A DNA stretch of 38,970 nt from Pseudomonadota bacterium (lineage in GTDB: Bacteria; Desulfobacterota; Binatia; Binatales; Binataceae). The stretch is from positions 1 through 38,970 of the forward strand of contig JAJPIF010000010.1 in NCBI GenBank assembly GCA_021324885.1. The letters run 5' to 3'. Below, piece after piece: positions 23,769 through 28,260 of the stretch. Below the pieces are notes generated by a model. That model was not told the origin of the DNA. It did no database searches and saw only the letters and a program-made list of their open reading frames with translations. The translations under genes were made by a program, and so were the position numbers. The first letter of the stretch is position 1. The number at the start of each line of letters is the position of its first letter.

Positions 23769-24407
23769 CTATTCGACGATGCCGATTTTGACTGCGTAGC
23801 GGACGAGTTCAGCCATCGTACCGACCCCCAATGCTTCCATCAATCTGTACTTGTGAAACTCGACGGTCTTTGGCGAGAGCTTAAGCGTAGCGGCGATTTC
23901 CTTGGCCTGCTTTCCTTCGGCCAGCAAACGGAGGACTTCGCGCTGGCGGCGCGTCAGCCCGTCTACCGGGCTTGTGTCATTATGCCGGCCTTCGAGAGAG
24001 TCGTTCACGGCCCGGGCGATTGATTTGGTCACATAACCGCGGCCGCCAAGCGCCTCGTTTATTGCCGTGAGCAGTTCGTTGCCGGCCGAACTTTTCAACA
24101 CATATGCGCAAGCCCCGGCCCGTATAGCCTGCCGCGCATAAATCACCTCGGGATGCATGGTAAGGAAGATGATCCTGGTATCCGGGTTCTGTTCATGGAT
24201 CTGGCGGGCCGCTTCAATGCCGTTGAGCAGCGGCATCGCCACGTCGGTGATAACGATATCAGGTTTCAGTTCAGCGGCGCTCTGCACCAGCGCGCGGCCG
24301 TCGGCGACTACACCCACGATTTCGAACTTCCGCCGGTTCAGGATTCGCCGCAGTCCCTCGATCACCACGGCGTGATCGTCCGCCAGTAAAACCCTGGTGC
24401 GTTTCAT
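23769..24407 (-). CDS. NarL/FixJ-type response regulator
   Basis: The 212-residue regulator has a receiver domain (about 4-120) with the acidic pocket D10-D11, the phosphorylation site D55 in VITDVAMP, the T residue in FLTMH and lysine K104-like in YVLKSS. A LuxR-type HTH (about 148-205) follows, with LTRRQREVLRLLAEGKQAKE. Its ATG overlaps the stop of the kinase gene (ATGA), so kinase and regulator form one two-component unit, the kinase being of the matching HisKA_3 type. The target genes are not evident; the degenerate AAA+ gene lies downstream on the same strand. Confidence 0.93.
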   Translation of the reverse strand: MKRTRVLLADDHAVVIEGLRRILNRRKFEIVGVVADGRALVQSAAELKPDIVITDVAMPLLNGIEAARQIHEQNPDTRIIFLTMHPEVIYARQAIRAGACAYVLKSSAGNELLTAINEALGGRGYVTKSIARAVNDSLEGRHNDTSPVDGLTRRQREVLRLLAEGKQAKEIAATLKLSPKTVEFHKYRLMEALGVGTMAELVRYAVKIGIVE

Positions 24408-26320
24408 CGGTGTTTTGCCAGCGGTATGAATACTTCAACCACCGTACCGGTTCCGGGTTGGGAACGGATGGAGAATCGGCCGTTGACCAGACGGACCCGC
24501 TCCTCCATGCTGATCAAGCCCAACCCGCCGCGTTTGCGCGCCTGCTCCACGTCGAAACCGTCGCCGGAATCCATGACCTGAAGGAAAACACCATCGGGAC
24601 TGCCGGTAAGCTTTACCTCTACCTCTGTCGCGCCGCTGTGCTTGCGGATATTGTGAAGACTTTCCTGGCCGATCCGGTACAAACATAACGAGACTTCCTG
24701 CGGCAGCGCCGCCGGCATTTGCGTCGAGGTAAACTGCACGCGCATAGCGGAATACTGCGACAGTTTTTCGCATTCCTCACGCAATGCCGCCTCCAGTCCA
24801 AGCTCATCGAGGATCGAAGGATGGAGCTGGCGGGAGGTATGATGAATTTCTTCGGCGAGACGGCTAACCTTCCTGCCGAGTTCCGCCAGGCGCGGCGCCA
24901 GACGGCTGCGCGCCGGGACGGAATTCATTAGCGACGAAACCTCCATCCCCACAGCCGCCAGTTCCTGGCTGAAAACATCGTGTAGTTCGCGCGCCAGATC
25001 CCGGTTCTCGTTTTCCTGGTCCGAAATCAGGCTGGCCGCCAGCCGCTGCAGTTGTTTGTGGTAATTAAGGACTATCTCCTCATTTTTTTTGCGTTCGGTG
25101 ATGTCGGAAATGAAGGCGACACCGAGTGCTCCGTGGCGGCTGCTGTGCAGATAGCTCAAACTGACCTCGATTGGAAAATCGGTGCCATCGCGCCGCAGTC
25201 CCATCAGTTGCAGACCGGAGCCCATCGGGCGGCTGGCCGGATGTAAGAACCATCGGGCGCGATGGACCGCGTGAGCCTGGCGCAAGCGTTTTGGAATCAA
25301 CTCCTCGATTGATTGCCCGATCAGTTCCTGGCGATTGTAGCCAAACATCTTTTCCGTAGCCGCATTGGCGAGGACAATCCGGCCCTGCTCGGTTACCGCG
25401 ACTATTGCCTGTGCCGCGGTTTCAAGGAGCGCATGGATGGTCTGAGCGCTTTCCTGGGCGGTTGCTTGCGCTTGAGCACGCATCGTCTGATCAGTTCCGG
25501 TCCCGATTACGTATTCGATGCGCCCGTCAGCGCTCTTTACGATGCTGTTCTTCCAGCTAATCAGGCACCGGTCGCCCGTTTTGGTCAGCCAGTAGTTCTC
25601 GTGATTTGGCGGGCTTCCGGAAACCGCCTCTTTGAAAACCGCCTTGACCGATTCAACCTCTTCGGGAACCACCAGAAAGTCCCATACGCGCCGCCCCTTC
25701 ACCTCTTCCAGAGCATAGCCGGTGAGATTCTGGCAGGTGCGGTTGAACTGAATGATACGTCCTTCAGGATCGAGTACTACGACCAGCAAATCCTGGGCGG
25801 CATCGAGGATCGCGGAAAGGAGATTTCGCTCATCTTGCAGCGCGTGTTCCTTTTTCGTCAGCTCGTCGATATCGAACAGGGCGATCACCGCACCGTCAAC
25901 CTTATCGCCGGCGGTACGCAAAGGTTGCACGCGCAGCGAGTACCAATGACCCTTTCTTTGGATTTCGCGGCTGGTTTCACTCCCGGTTTCCATGACGGAT
26001 GAAACAATCCGCTCGAGGCCCGGAATATCGATTTCCAGCCGGAGATCGGCAAGCGGCTGGCCGACATCGACCGGAACCAAACCGAACAGAGTTTGCGCAG
26101 CGGATGTAAACTGGCGGATGGTGCCGCCAGGCTCCAGAATTATCATGGCAACGTTGACCGCGCTGAGGACGTTGGACAGCTCGCCGCACCGGCGGCTCAA
26201 ATCGCTATTGCGATTTGCCAATTCGCCGCTGAGGGAAATCAATTCCTCGTTGGCGGTGTGGCGTTGTTCCTCGTCTTCTTTCATCATCTGCCGTTGCGCC
26301 GATGATCTGAATTGCCCCAA
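24404..26320 (-). CDS. PAS-containing histidine kinase (HisKA_3, NarX/DegS-like)
   Basis: The 638-residue kinase has no clear membrane segment, so it is probably cytosolic. Three PAS domains lie at about 50-155, 165-280 and 293-412, then a HisKA_3 dimerisation region with the phosphorylated H447 in ARELHDVFSQE, and a HATPase domain (about 545-635) with GDGFD and GGLGLISMEERV. The first 160 residues resemble the coiled-coil-PAS part of CheB-CheR-PAS hybrid proteins (NEELISLSGEL, LDIP-like, WYSLRVQPLRT), as if cut from such a fusion. ATG 26320 is used; M12/M13 are alternatives. It partners the overlapping response regulator. Confidence 0.92.
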   Translation of the reverse strand: MGQFRSSAQRQMMKEDEEQRHTANEELISLSGELANRNSDLSRRCGELSNVLSAVNVAMIILEPGGTIRQFTSAAQTLFGLVPVDVGQPLADLRLEIDIPGLERIVSSVMETGSETSREIQRKGHWYSLRVQPLRTAGDKVDGAVIALFDIDELTKKEHALQDERNLLSAILDAAQDLLVVVLDPEGRIIQFNRTCQNLTGYALEEVKGRRVWDFLVVPEEVESVKAVFKEAVSGSPPNHENYWLTKTGDRCLISWKNSIVKSADGRIEYVIGTGTDQTMRAQAQATAQESAQTIHALLETAAQAIVAVTEQGRIVLANAATEKMFGYNRQELIGQSIEELIPKRLRQAHAVHRARWFLHPASRPMGSGLQLMGLRRDGTDFPIEVSLSYLHSSRHGALGVAFISDITERKKNEEIVLNYHKQLQRLAASLISDQENENRDLARELHDVFSQELAAVGMEVSSLMNSVPARSRLAPRLAELGRKVSRLAEEIHHTSRQLHPSILDELGLEAALREECEKLSQYSAMRVQFTSTQMPAALPQEVSLCLYRIGQESLHNIRKHSGATEVEVKLTGSPDGVFLQVMDSGDGFDVEQARKRGGLGLISMEERVRLVNGRFSIRSQPGTGTVVEVFIPLAKHR

Positions 26321-26469: not shown

Positions 26470-27321
26470 TTAAAAGAACCAGCCGGATTCCGATGACGGT
26501 CCGAACAGCGCGCCGATAAAGCGCTCCAGCTCGATGTTGAATTTCATGATTACATGATCGGAGCCGCGCGTCAGCCCGAATCCCGGTCCGATGTTGTATT
26601 CGATGCCGTGGGGAAGCTGGCCCCAAATCACCGGGAATATGTAATGCTGCTGCGCGGAGAGCGGGTCGCTATCGTCAATCAAACCAGTGCCGCCGTAAAA
26701 TTCGATGCCAGGCGACAGGTAGCGATTCCAGCGATAATAGGCGCCGGCGGAATAGCCGAATTCGAATCCTTCATGTACGCCAACGCCTTTCAGTACTTTC
26801 TCAAAAATTGGATTGGCGATGAGGGAAAAGCGGCCGATATCCTTTTCGATTATCGGACGCAGCTCGAGTTCAAGGTCGGCATCGTCGAACTGCCGCGTGT
26901 GATGCCATTCGAGCTCGGCGTACCAACCCAAATCCAGTGGCAGCACGCCCGGGTCGAACAGCCGCCCCCGCAACCTGTATTCTGATCCAGCGTACCAGTA
27001 GCCGTGGCCGGCAGGTTGGGCCATCAGCAGATAAGCTCCGGCTTCGATGCGGTCGGTGAGCCCATAGGTGAGTTCATACTGATTGTACCACATCCCCTGG
27101 CTGCGAAACGTTCCCGCGGCCGTGCCTTCGCCGCCCTGGCTGTGCCCGTTGGCGATAACGGCATTATCCGTCTCCAACTCCATCGTGCCGCGGCTCTCGG
27201 TCGCATAGGGATACACCTCGAACTCCCAGGGATCGACCTGCGCAGCCGCATCGGTTGCGTACAGAAAGGGGATCCAGAGCAGCGCGCCCATCGTTATCAA
27301 TATCAATCGCGGACGTTTCAC
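26470..27321 (-). CDS. Outer-membrane beta-barrel protein, iron-operon third gene
   Basis: The 283-residue protein has a signal peptide (residues 1-27, KRPRLILITMGALLW, cleaved after TDAAA) and a body of alternating aromatic/polar strands such as WYNQYELTYGLTDRIEAGAYL, ending in an aromatic GWFF as barrel proteins do. I choose GTG 27321 because it puts the signal at the N-terminus and starts 10 bases after the upstream stop; the longer frame to 27393 overlaps the haem-binding gene. It is the last gene of a three-gene exported operon behind Fur-like boxes. The transported or bound substrate is unknown. Confidence 0.75.
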   Translation of the reverse strand: MKRPRLILITMGALLWIPFLYATDAAAQVDPWEFEVYPYATESRGTMELETDNAVIANGHSQGGEGTAAGTFRSQGMWYNQYELTYGLTDRIEAGAYLLMAQPAGHGYWYAGSEYRLRGRLFDPGVLPLDLGWYAELEWHHTRQFDDADLELELRPIIEKDIGRFSLIANPIFEKVLKGVGVHEGFEFGYSAGAYYRWNRYLSPGIEFYGGTGLIDDSDPLSAQQHYIFPVIWGQLPHGIEYNIGPGFGLTRGSDHVIMKFNIELERFIGALFGPSSESGWFF

Positions 27322-27331
27322 TTGTAACTGT

Positions 27332-27802
27332 TCACTTTCCGGATGGCTGATCGGAGGCCGTTGTGATCGGCGCCGAATCGATCCATTGCTCAAGCCTTGC
27401 TCGTTCGGCGTCGGTAAGCGTCGCGCCAGGATGGAGCACCCGGTAATACCACGGCGGCATGTTTTCGCGGCGCAGCACCCGCCCCATCCATTCGAGCTTC
27501 CGCTTGCGGGTGGCAGGGTAATAGCTGCCCCATTGCGAGAAGTTCAGCTCCTTGCGGCCGAGGTTGACATCGTGAACCATCAACCATGAAGCAGGGGCAA
27601 TGTGGCTGTACCAGGGCCATCGCGTCGCGTTGGAATGGCAATCGTAACAGGCGCGGCTGAGCGCGGCTTCGACCTCGGGCGGCGCCGCCAGAGCACCTTT
27701 AGTGGGAGGATTGGTGCGTCTGGCCGGCACCAACTGCGCGGCCACAACGACCACGAGAACAGGTATCATCGCCGCAATCGCGGCTGTTCGAGGGGCAGCC
27801 AC
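27332..27802 (-). CDS. Haem-binding domain protein (Haem_bd family)
   Basis: The 156-residue protein has an N-terminal hydrophobic anchor or signal (about 8-25) and the Haem_bd signature: CYDCH (C52, C55, H56), followed by SNATRWPWYSHIAPASW, LNFSQWGSY and an MPPWYY segment. The CxxCH motif binds c-type haem in the periplasm. It lies between a cupredoxin gene (31 bases upstream) and an outer-membrane protein gene, all on minus, so it probably takes part in a periplasmic redox or iron-handling step. The exact role is not established. Confidence 0.88.
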   Translation of the reverse strand: MAAPRTAAIAAMIPVLVVVVAAQLVPARRTNPPTKGALAAPPEVEAALSRACYDCHSNATRWPWYSHIAPASWLMVHDVNLGRKELNFSQWGSYYPATRKRKLEWMGRVLRRENMPPWYYRVLHPGATLTDAERARLEQWIDSAPITTASDQPSGK

Positions 27803-27833
27803 GAGTTACATCCACAGCAAAGAACTGCGCCCG

Positions 27834-28190
27834 CTATTTCGCGACAATCACGCCCTCAGGCACGTCCTGGTGGAAATCGTCGTAAAAGTCGTAGCTGCCG
27901 GGACTCAGCGCGGGCAGGCGAACCCTGATCGTTTCGCCCGGCGTCATCGCGACTTCGCGATTAAGCTTGAAGCTTTCGAACTCGATGGTTTCGTTGCTGG
28001 CGTTGACGACCTTAATCGCAAGCGGGCGGCCTGCGGGCACGGTCAAGGTTTGCGGCGTGAAGTGATGGCCGGAGAAGCGGATTGCCGCCACCTCGCCATC
28101 CTGCTGCGCGGTATATCCCGTGCCAAGCACGGATACGGTCGCAAGGAGCAGGGTCGCGGCAATTATGAACGGCGTCGAGATGCGAGACAT
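27834..28190 (-). CDS. Periplasmic cupredoxin-domain protein (EfeO-cupredoxin-like)
   Basis: The 118-residue product has a signal peptide (about 1-28) and one cupredoxin fold: FTPQTLTVPAGRP, FESFKLNREV, TPGETIRVRLPALSPGSYDF and a DFH motif at 105-107. From memory this resembles the stand-alone cupredoxins found beside FTR1/EfeU iron permeases and the N-terminal domain of EfeO. An AAGGA site precedes ATG 28190. Two Fur-like boxes and a promoter lie 15 to 70 bases upstream, supporting an iron-uptake role. No FTR1 permease is in the window. Confidence 0.85.
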   Translation of the reverse strand: MSRISTPFIIAATLLLATVSVLGTGYTAQQDGEVAAIRFSGHHFTPQTLTVPAGRPLAIKVVNASNETIEFESFKLNREVAMTPGETIRVRLPALSPGSYDFYDDFHQDVPEGVIVAK

Positions 28191-28204
28191 CAGTGTTCCT
28201 TTAT

Positions 28205-28241
28205 TGAGAATGATTCTCAGCTTCCGTGAGAATGAATATCA
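28205..28241 (-). promoter_or_regulatory. Tandem Fur-box-like operators
   Basis: TGAGAATGATTCTCA (28205-28219) is a 7-1-7 inverted repeat, perfect in both arms and close to the Fur consensus core. A second, imperfect copy TGAGAATGAATATCA follows at 28227-28241, 22 bases (two helix turns) on. They lie immediately upstream of the cupredoxin operon, with the second copy overlapping the -10 element. Confidence 0.75.
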
Positions 28242-28260
28242 ATTTCGAAAACCTTGTCAA
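28233..28260 (-). promoter_or_regulatory. Sigma70-type promoter of cupredoxin-haem-barrel operon
   Basis: On the minus strand a perfect -35 TTGACA (28260-28255) is followed 16 bases later by TATTCA (28238-28233). The Fur-like box covers the -10 region, the classic arrangement for iron repression. Confidence 0.6.

Follow-up and report, generated by a model that had tools for sequence, protein, structure and literature searches.

Organisation of the locus

The window, by which we mean the whole stretch of 38,970 nucleotides that was analysed, carries three consecutive genes for a cupredoxin (cup), a haem-binding protein (hbd) and a predicted outer-membrane barrel (bar), placed behind a promoter with two Fur-like boxes. 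The locus raises the question of what this trio does, since an earlier note on this DNA had read it as an envelope route for iron or copper-redox uptake that lacked a permease. We propose that the trio probably supplies the outer-membrane and periplasmic components of an FTR1-type importer of ferrous iron that is repressed by Fur; its inner-membrane component, FTR1, is encoded separately behind a similar box.

The window is a complete contig (C26); the genome to which it belongs measures 4.53 Mb, is 96% complete and comes from the family Binataceae, class Binatia. The trio runs on the minus strand from position 28260 downward, in the order TTGACA, two Fur-like boxes, cup, hbd and bar; 31 bp separate cup from hbd, and 10 bp separate hbd from bar. 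The features are as follows.

28255-28260, minus strand: TTGACA, a perfect -35-like hexamer, from the sequence
28227-28241, unstranded: box 2, the upstream Fur-like box TGAGAATGAATATCA, 11 of 12 fixed positions, overlapping the presumed -10 region
28205-28219, unstranded: box 1, Fur-like box TGAGAATGATTCTCA (TGAGAATCATTCTCA on the minus strand), 12 of 12 fixed positions, 14 bp upstream of the cup ATG
27834-28190, minus strand: cup, FtrB-type (Cup-II) cupredoxin of 118 aa, likely exported (Cupredoxin_1, PF13473, 83.8 bits; FtrB 8VUK, E=1.9e-21)
27332-27802, minus strand: hbd, Haem_bd protein of 156 aa with a single CxxCH (PF14376, 134.5 bits)
26470-27321, minus strand: bar, predicted 12-strand outer-membrane beta-barrel of 283 aa with a likely signal peptide (AlphaFold2 model and fold neighbours)

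Gene calls across the loci were crude, being longest open frames; for bar a GTG start was preferred, the TTG at 27393 marking merely the longest frame. Export signals were apparent by eye at the N-termini of the trio. Together with the Haem_bd match and the 12-strand model, this inspection upheld the earlier description of three exported proteins that include a CxxCH haem-binding protein and an outer-membrane barrel. A Pfam scan of five neighbours found no iron genes: a PAS histidine kinase, a response regulator, a sigma-54 activator and a nucleotidyl transferase lie downstream, and an LPG_synthase_TM protein is encoded upstream on the opposite strand. The kinase forms a pair with the response regulator, which is of the LuxR type, directly downstream of bar on the same strand (23769-26320).

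Fur-like boxes at the trio promoter

The Fur consensus is a 7-1-7 palindrome, and the trio box fits such a palindrome over the promoter and is conserved among relatives. Boxes 1 and 2 start 22 bp apart. Allowing at most one mismatch, TGANAATNATTNTCA was matched twice in the window against 0.03 matches expected, a count reached by none of 100 shuffles, and it occurred at 12 sites in the genome compared to one for the reversed pattern. The strict form TGAGAATNATTCTCA, again with at most one mismatch, had the trio promoter as its sole occurrence in the 4.53 Mb.

To compare relatives, boxes were scored at 12 fixed positions in the DNA ahead of cup; where a locus had no cup, the region ahead of bar was used. 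Scores were obtained for 29 of 30 trio loci, 28 from Binataceae and one (L031) from outside the family; L035, where the contig ends inside the gene, was omitted. Sixteen loci scored 12, ten scored 11 and three scored 8 or lower, so that at least 11 positions were kept in 26/29. The low-scoring loci were L031 (G132, another family) and two without cup at the locus, L019 and L027; for L019 the score reflects a misplaced start estimate, and a box scoring 11 stands directly before the barrel match on the same contig (L048). TTGAC was found 16-41 bp ahead of the box in all 26 boxed loci.

These results, with the sequence itself and the window and genome counts, confirmed the earlier claim of two Fur-like boxes 22 bases apart with a TTGACA. 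The further claim that this promoter is strong held in part. The hexamer is conserved in relatives, but a generic sigma-70 scan, which listed three other promoter-like sites against 1.2 expected, omitted the TTGACA at 28255-28260 from its output; the word strong thus rests on the conservation.

A permease gene behind the same promoter design

The genome of the window contained a single FTR1 match (62.4 bits), a protein of 297 aa with two REGxE motifs (REGTE and REGGE). The gene lies on a different contig from the trio and has the same TTGACA-plus-box promoter design:

G000:C13, L084 7287-8180, minus strand: FTR1 (PF03239); box with TTGACA, 14 bp before the ATG

The lack of a permease is consequently not a property of the organism, as the earlier note might suggest. 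FTR1 was present in 39/41 Binataceae genomes; G006 (53% complete) and G012 (94% complete) had the barrel without it. Because two genomes (G016 and G027) have two copies each, 41 FTR1 loci were available, taken with about 2.5 kb on either side where the contig allowed. Of these, 26 scored 12, ten scored 11, three scored 10 and two scored 7 (at least 11 in 36/41; at least 10 in 39/41), and TTGAC stood 33-38 bp ahead of the box in 33/39 boxed loci. The two loci scoring 7, which have no box, are L153 (G016:C25) and L138 (G027:C46), each holding the second FTR1 copy of its genome.

Among background tiles, none of 844 scored 11 or more and one scored 10; none of the 244 tiles from trio loci exceeded 9, and the 600 from FTR1 loci included the one at 10 and none higher. 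This control simply tiles the loci themselves, most of it being coding DNA rather than matched promoters, and the genomes are related; for both reasons the comparison is given without a p-value. A chance origin of the boxes was ruled out by the shuffles, the expectation for the window and the background tiles. None of the 41 Binataceae FTR1 stretches contained cup, hbd or bar, so in this family the partnership between FTR1 and the trio rests on their shared promoters.

A third boxed unit, again with TTGACA ahead of the box, encodes a BFD-like ferredoxin and, after it, a ferritin-like protein (41.8 and 130.4 bits, respectively). Of the 12 box-like genomic sites, four serve the trio, FTR1 and this bfd-ferritin pair, one precedes another Fur-family gene, and the remaining seven lie inside frames or near genes without an assignment. 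The assigned regulon thus comprises iron uptake and storage. The site ahead of the other Fur-family gene, TGATAATTACTATCA, lies just before it at L077 (G000:C5:270689) and perhaps reflects autoregulation of that gene.

Four Fur-family proteins are encoded in the genome, which leaves some room for a Zur-, PerR- or Mur-type regulator to read the boxes. We consider this quite improbable. One of the four, on C30, shares 53-64% identity with the Fur proteins linked to these operons in relatives, compared to 29-35% for the other three, and a similar box stands at the bfd-ferritin pair; the C30 protein is, by its sequence, the presumptive Fur that acts on the boxes. In several Binataceae (L057, L058, L060 and L062) a Fur orthologue was seen near the trio, 4.4-5.5 kb after the barrel gene.

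The genome had no match to P19/FtrA (PF10634), to the Peptidase_M75 domain of EfeO (PF09375) or to FeoB_C, at 96% completeness, and its TonB plug proteins numbered just two. With these alternatives unmatched and so few TonB plug proteins, the FTR1/trio system could be a main iron route of the organism.

The cupredoxin has the metal-site residues of FtrB

When a profile of 23 cup proteins was compared with the sequences of solved structures, Brucella FtrB (8VUK) ranked first (E=1.9e-21), and EfeO (7wgu) gave a weak match (E=0.0064). The residues E70, E72, E79, D104, D105 and H107 of cup align with E84, E86, E93, D118, D119 and H121 of FtrB, so that all six are kept. These results agree with the earlier view that the cupredoxin is of the kind that partners FTR1. 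E70, E72 and E79 were invariant in the 23 sequences. H107 was kept in 20/23 and replaced in L057, L061 and L161, a variation that counts against the importer reading.

In FtrB, residues E84, E86, E93 and D119 hold Mn2+ as a mimic of Fe2+, and D118 and H121 form a predicted Cu2+ site, although no copper was seen in the crystal. Cu2+ binding was lost in the D118A protein, Cu-FtrB oxidised Fe2+ 3.5 times faster than autoxidation, and the related FtrB of R. gelatinosus did not bind Cu2+ (PMC11966278, excerpts, for all of these statements).

A system for copper acquisition or copper stress would account for the cupredoxin label and for the copper outer-membrane protein PcoB among the fold neighbours of the barrel, and it is the least probable of the readings considered here. 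Cup contains no Cys, and no Cys is conserved across the 23 aligned sequences; without this ligand the type-1 site is missing, and identity as a blue copper protein was excluded. The conserved FtrB iron ligands, the Fur-type box and the linkage to FTR1 likewise argue against a copper system. The copper-redox part of the earlier proposal was accordingly not sustained, since a blue-copper site is absent and conservation falls on the residues of the FtrB iron and copper sites, whereas an envelope function in iron uptake is likely, judging from the sequences.

The haem-binding protein

The CxxCH motif of hbd (C52, C55 and H56) was invariant in an alignment of 17 sequences, as was M115, which suggests a His/Met c-type haem protein with M115 as an axial ligand. 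Among sequences of solved structures, hbd best matched a probable cytochrome c peroxidase (9qdt, E=6.2e-9), over the N-terminal part of the latter, a match that implies no specific role. An own cytochrome c domain was present in three of six scanned FTR1 proteins, which suggests that the fused domain and hbd may share a role as electron sink. To our knowledge, the destination of the electron that FtrB takes from iron is unsettled. The haem protein is dispensable, as loci without it occur among relatives.

The predicted barrel and its cargo

For the bar product neither Pfam nor NCBIfam offered a family at E<=1, and searches by sequence against solved structures gave chance-level matches only (E>=0.56). 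An AlphaFold2 model built from 18 sequences has 12 strands (pLDDT 76.6, pTM 0.72); with the lowest of the five models at 38, confidence extends to the overall fold only. In Foldseek and VIA-align comparisons the nearest solved folds were those of FapF (5o65, 5o67 and 5o68; Z 18.0, 213 aligned residues, rmsd 3.6), followed by the COG4313 channel 4rl8 (Z 16.8, 220 aligned, rmsd 4.2). Identity to these neighbours was 9-11%. PcoB was also among the neighbours (Z 12.9). The model is that of a channel-like barrel; its fold neighbours FapF and the COG4313 channel give no hint of iron, and it is the genomic company alone that suggests a possible role in iron transport.

It could also be that the iron-uptake system stands but the barrel has a different cargo: a small chelate of iron, for instance, a chelate of copper to supply the cupredoxin, or a product on its way out of the cell. 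This seems to us unlikely, but it is the most serious of the competing explanations. The nearest folds belong to an amyloid exporter (FapF) and to the COG4313 channel, none being an iron channel, PcoB is among the neighbours, ligand residues could not be assigned in the barrel, and some genomes with FTR1 lack it. Set against these points, the recurring neighbours of the barrel gene are FTR1, the cupredoxin and Fur, and visual inspection of the genes called at the linked loci, a minority of which were searched against families, revealed no siderophore or copper genes. Iron is retained here as the proposed cargo.

Conservation and linkage in relatives

The set of three genes was sought in relatives, as the earlier note had advised, and it proved to be conserved. 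In the 29 relative trio loci, cup, hbd and bar occurred together in 21 (with hbd fragmented in L021) and cup with bar in four; cup was missing from the other four, one of which stops at a contig end and one of which holds an hbd fragment. The loss of hbd from 4/29 loci and of cup from four others counts against the importer reading.

A barrel match was present in 48/145 searched genomes, with the own genome and weaker paralogues counted, and a class-wide search found a match in 47/148 genomes, nearly all of the 148 belonging to the earlier set. Within Binataceae a close orthologue (at least 57% identity) was found in 33/41 genomes, in two pieces in G013. The other eight have FTR1 without a full barrel orthologue, which also counts against the importer reading and means that FTR1 can exist without the barrel: G016, G027 and G033 have a weak paralogue only, G020 a paralogue and a fragment, and G017, G024, G028 and G029 none. 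A distant barrel paralogue (32% identity) is also encoded in the genome of the window (G000:C13:209402-210094; L085 7355-8140) and in many Binataceae; no iron gene was recognised by eye beside it at L085.

Among 104 searched Binatia genomes from outside Binataceae, the barrel was matched in 11, FTR1 in 41 and both in nine (Fisher p=0.006, with species that are not independent). FTR1 without a barrel match was found in 32 genomes, and a barrel match without FTR1 in G049 and G084 (a partial barrel in the latter); like G006 and G012, these cases weigh against the importer reading. In eight of the nine genomes with both, the two genes share a contig and stand about 3 kb apart or closer, and the linked FTR1 that had been looked for was in this way found; in G132 they are on different contigs. 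The order is Fur, cup, FTR1, bar in G053, G060, G073 and G080; cup, FTR1, bar in G069; and FTR1/cytochrome, cup, bar in G112. In G066 (L159) the cluster is full: Fur comes first, then an FTR1 with a fused cytochrome c, then cup, hbd and bar, and a box lies in the interval that separates the Fur and FTR1 genes. G067 has a partial barrel, Fur and FTR1/cytochrome, and cup was not found there. A Fur gene adjoins FTR1 and the barrel in six loci (L157, L158, L159, L160, L162 and L163). Twelve non-Binataceae loci were fetched, eight linked and the others from G132, G049 and G084; strict boxes occurred in L159 and L161 only, so the box is mainly a feature of Binataceae. In L161 (G069:C56, 6267-7727, plus strand) most of FTR1 and the barrel, the latter with an apparent signal peptide of its own, share one open frame, with the FTR1 start in another frame; this is either a sequencing error or a real fusion.

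The trio might alternatively be an envelope unit for Fe2+ oxidation or electron transfer, serving detoxification or energy, that is controlled by Fur and does not feed FTR1. The pairing of a haem protein with a barrel is reminiscent of the porin-cytochrome conduits MtoAB and PioAB, and FTR1 is not adjacent to the trio in Binataceae. Such a unit is nonetheless improbable: hbd has a single CxxCH, FTR1 is clustered with these genes in other families and has the same promoter design as the trio, and the other assigned box sites in the genome belong to the iron permease and the bfd-ferritin pair. A link to FTR1 import remains the preferred reading of the trio.

Beyond Binatia, two barrel queries against 72,556 plasmid records found one organism only, Hydrogenophaga sp. 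PBL-H3 (two records). The relative on NZ_CP044976.1 is 26.6% identical to the barrel of the window (E=9e-6) and 25.8% identical to that of G060 (E=6e-13). On this conjugative plasmid (L200 4786-6465) FTR1 is followed directly by the barrel relative, which is interrupted by a stop, and then by TMEM165/GDT1 and DmeF genes. A cup-bar pair without hbd was also seen on three metagenome-assembled contigs titled Opitutaceae (L051, L052 and L069), with barrel identity of 61-69% and a box, 11/12, in L052 only; transfer between phyla and wrong titles are both possible explanations.

Proposed working of the system

In iron shortage Fur would leave the boxes, and the trio and FTR1 units would both be expressed. 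Iron would enter the periplasm through the barrel. Cup would bind Fe2+ at E70, E72, E79 and D105 and oxidise it with the help of copper at D104 and H107. The electron would pass to hbd and its c-type haem; in some relatives it would go instead to the cytochrome c domains that are fused to FTR1. The Fe3+ would then be handed to FTR1, with its two REGxE motifs, for import, and the Bfd and ferritin-like proteins, whose genes have a box of similar type, may serve in iron storage or release.

A stronger proposal, which we hold tentatively and as somewhat short of probable, is that of a complete trans-envelope FTR1 pathway, in which a dedicated, TonB-independent barrel would pass inorganic iron to an FtrB ferroxidase, and this enzyme, with a c-type haem and not oxygen as the direct acceptor of its electron, would feed FTR1. 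If this were true, the pathway would recur beyond Binatia, on the Hydrogenophaga plasmid and in the Opitutaceae-titled genomes. We know of no outer-membrane component previously assigned to FTR1, Ftr or Efe systems. No report of an outer-membrane barrel with FTR1 was found among the open-access papers and passages covered, a weak negative given that subscription papers were largely uncovered, and FTR1, cupredoxin, siderophore and Binataceae did not occur in the main text of a study of Binatota genomes (PMC8262859). A dedicated barrel is not obviously needed, since the passage of Fe2+ across the outer membrane has been attributed to porins (PMC5681537, in part). Because the barrel and haem protein are conserved alongside the cupredoxin, and in relatives alongside FTR1, both the crossing of the outer membrane and the fate of the FtrB electron can be addressed by experiment.

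Comparison with known systems

The closest likeness is to FtrABCD of Bordetella, Brucella and Burkholderia, which combines an FTR1 permease with the FtrB cupredoxin and its same six metal-site residues (PMC11966278, in part). The genome of the window differs in lacking a P19/FtrA match, in adding the barrel and haem protein, and in having FTR1 at a second locus. EfeUOB is alike in outline, with the same kinds of part: its permease EfeU is an FTR1 protein, the N-terminus of EfeO is a related cupredoxin (excerpts of PMC11966278) and EfeB is a haem protein (PMC3577903, in part). Here, in contrast, there was no Peptidase_M75/EfeO match, the haem protein belongs to the Haem_bd family and has a CxxCH motif, and a barrel is added. 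Membership of either system was rejected on the basis of zero matches to PF10634 and PF09375, P19 and EfeO-M75 both being missing. The system most likely works like FtrB-FTR1 import, yet it is neither FtrABCD nor EfeUOB as these are defined.

The yeast Fet3p-Ftr1p pair shares import by FTR1 coupled to a ferroxidase (PMC11966278, in part), but the present protein is a single-domain cupredoxin rather than a multicopper oxidase and sits in a Gram-negative envelope. In Francisella an outer-membrane protein for ferrous iron, FupA, is paired with an inner-membrane permease (PMC4905997 and PMC7432831, both in part); that permease is FeoB, whereas FeoB_C was unmatched here. Synechocystis takes up iron via porins and the cFTR1 permease in one organism, with no operon or common box reported in the excerpts of PMC11221513 that describe it. 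The COG4313 channel and FapF have a fold similar to that of the barrel, at 9-11% identity and with no Pfam match for the barrel. The earlier description of the route as undescribed holds in part: the core chemistry and the permease are of the known FTR1/FtrB type, and the additions, for which no report appeared among the papers covered, are a barrel, a haem protein and the placement of the genes at two loci behind one type of box.
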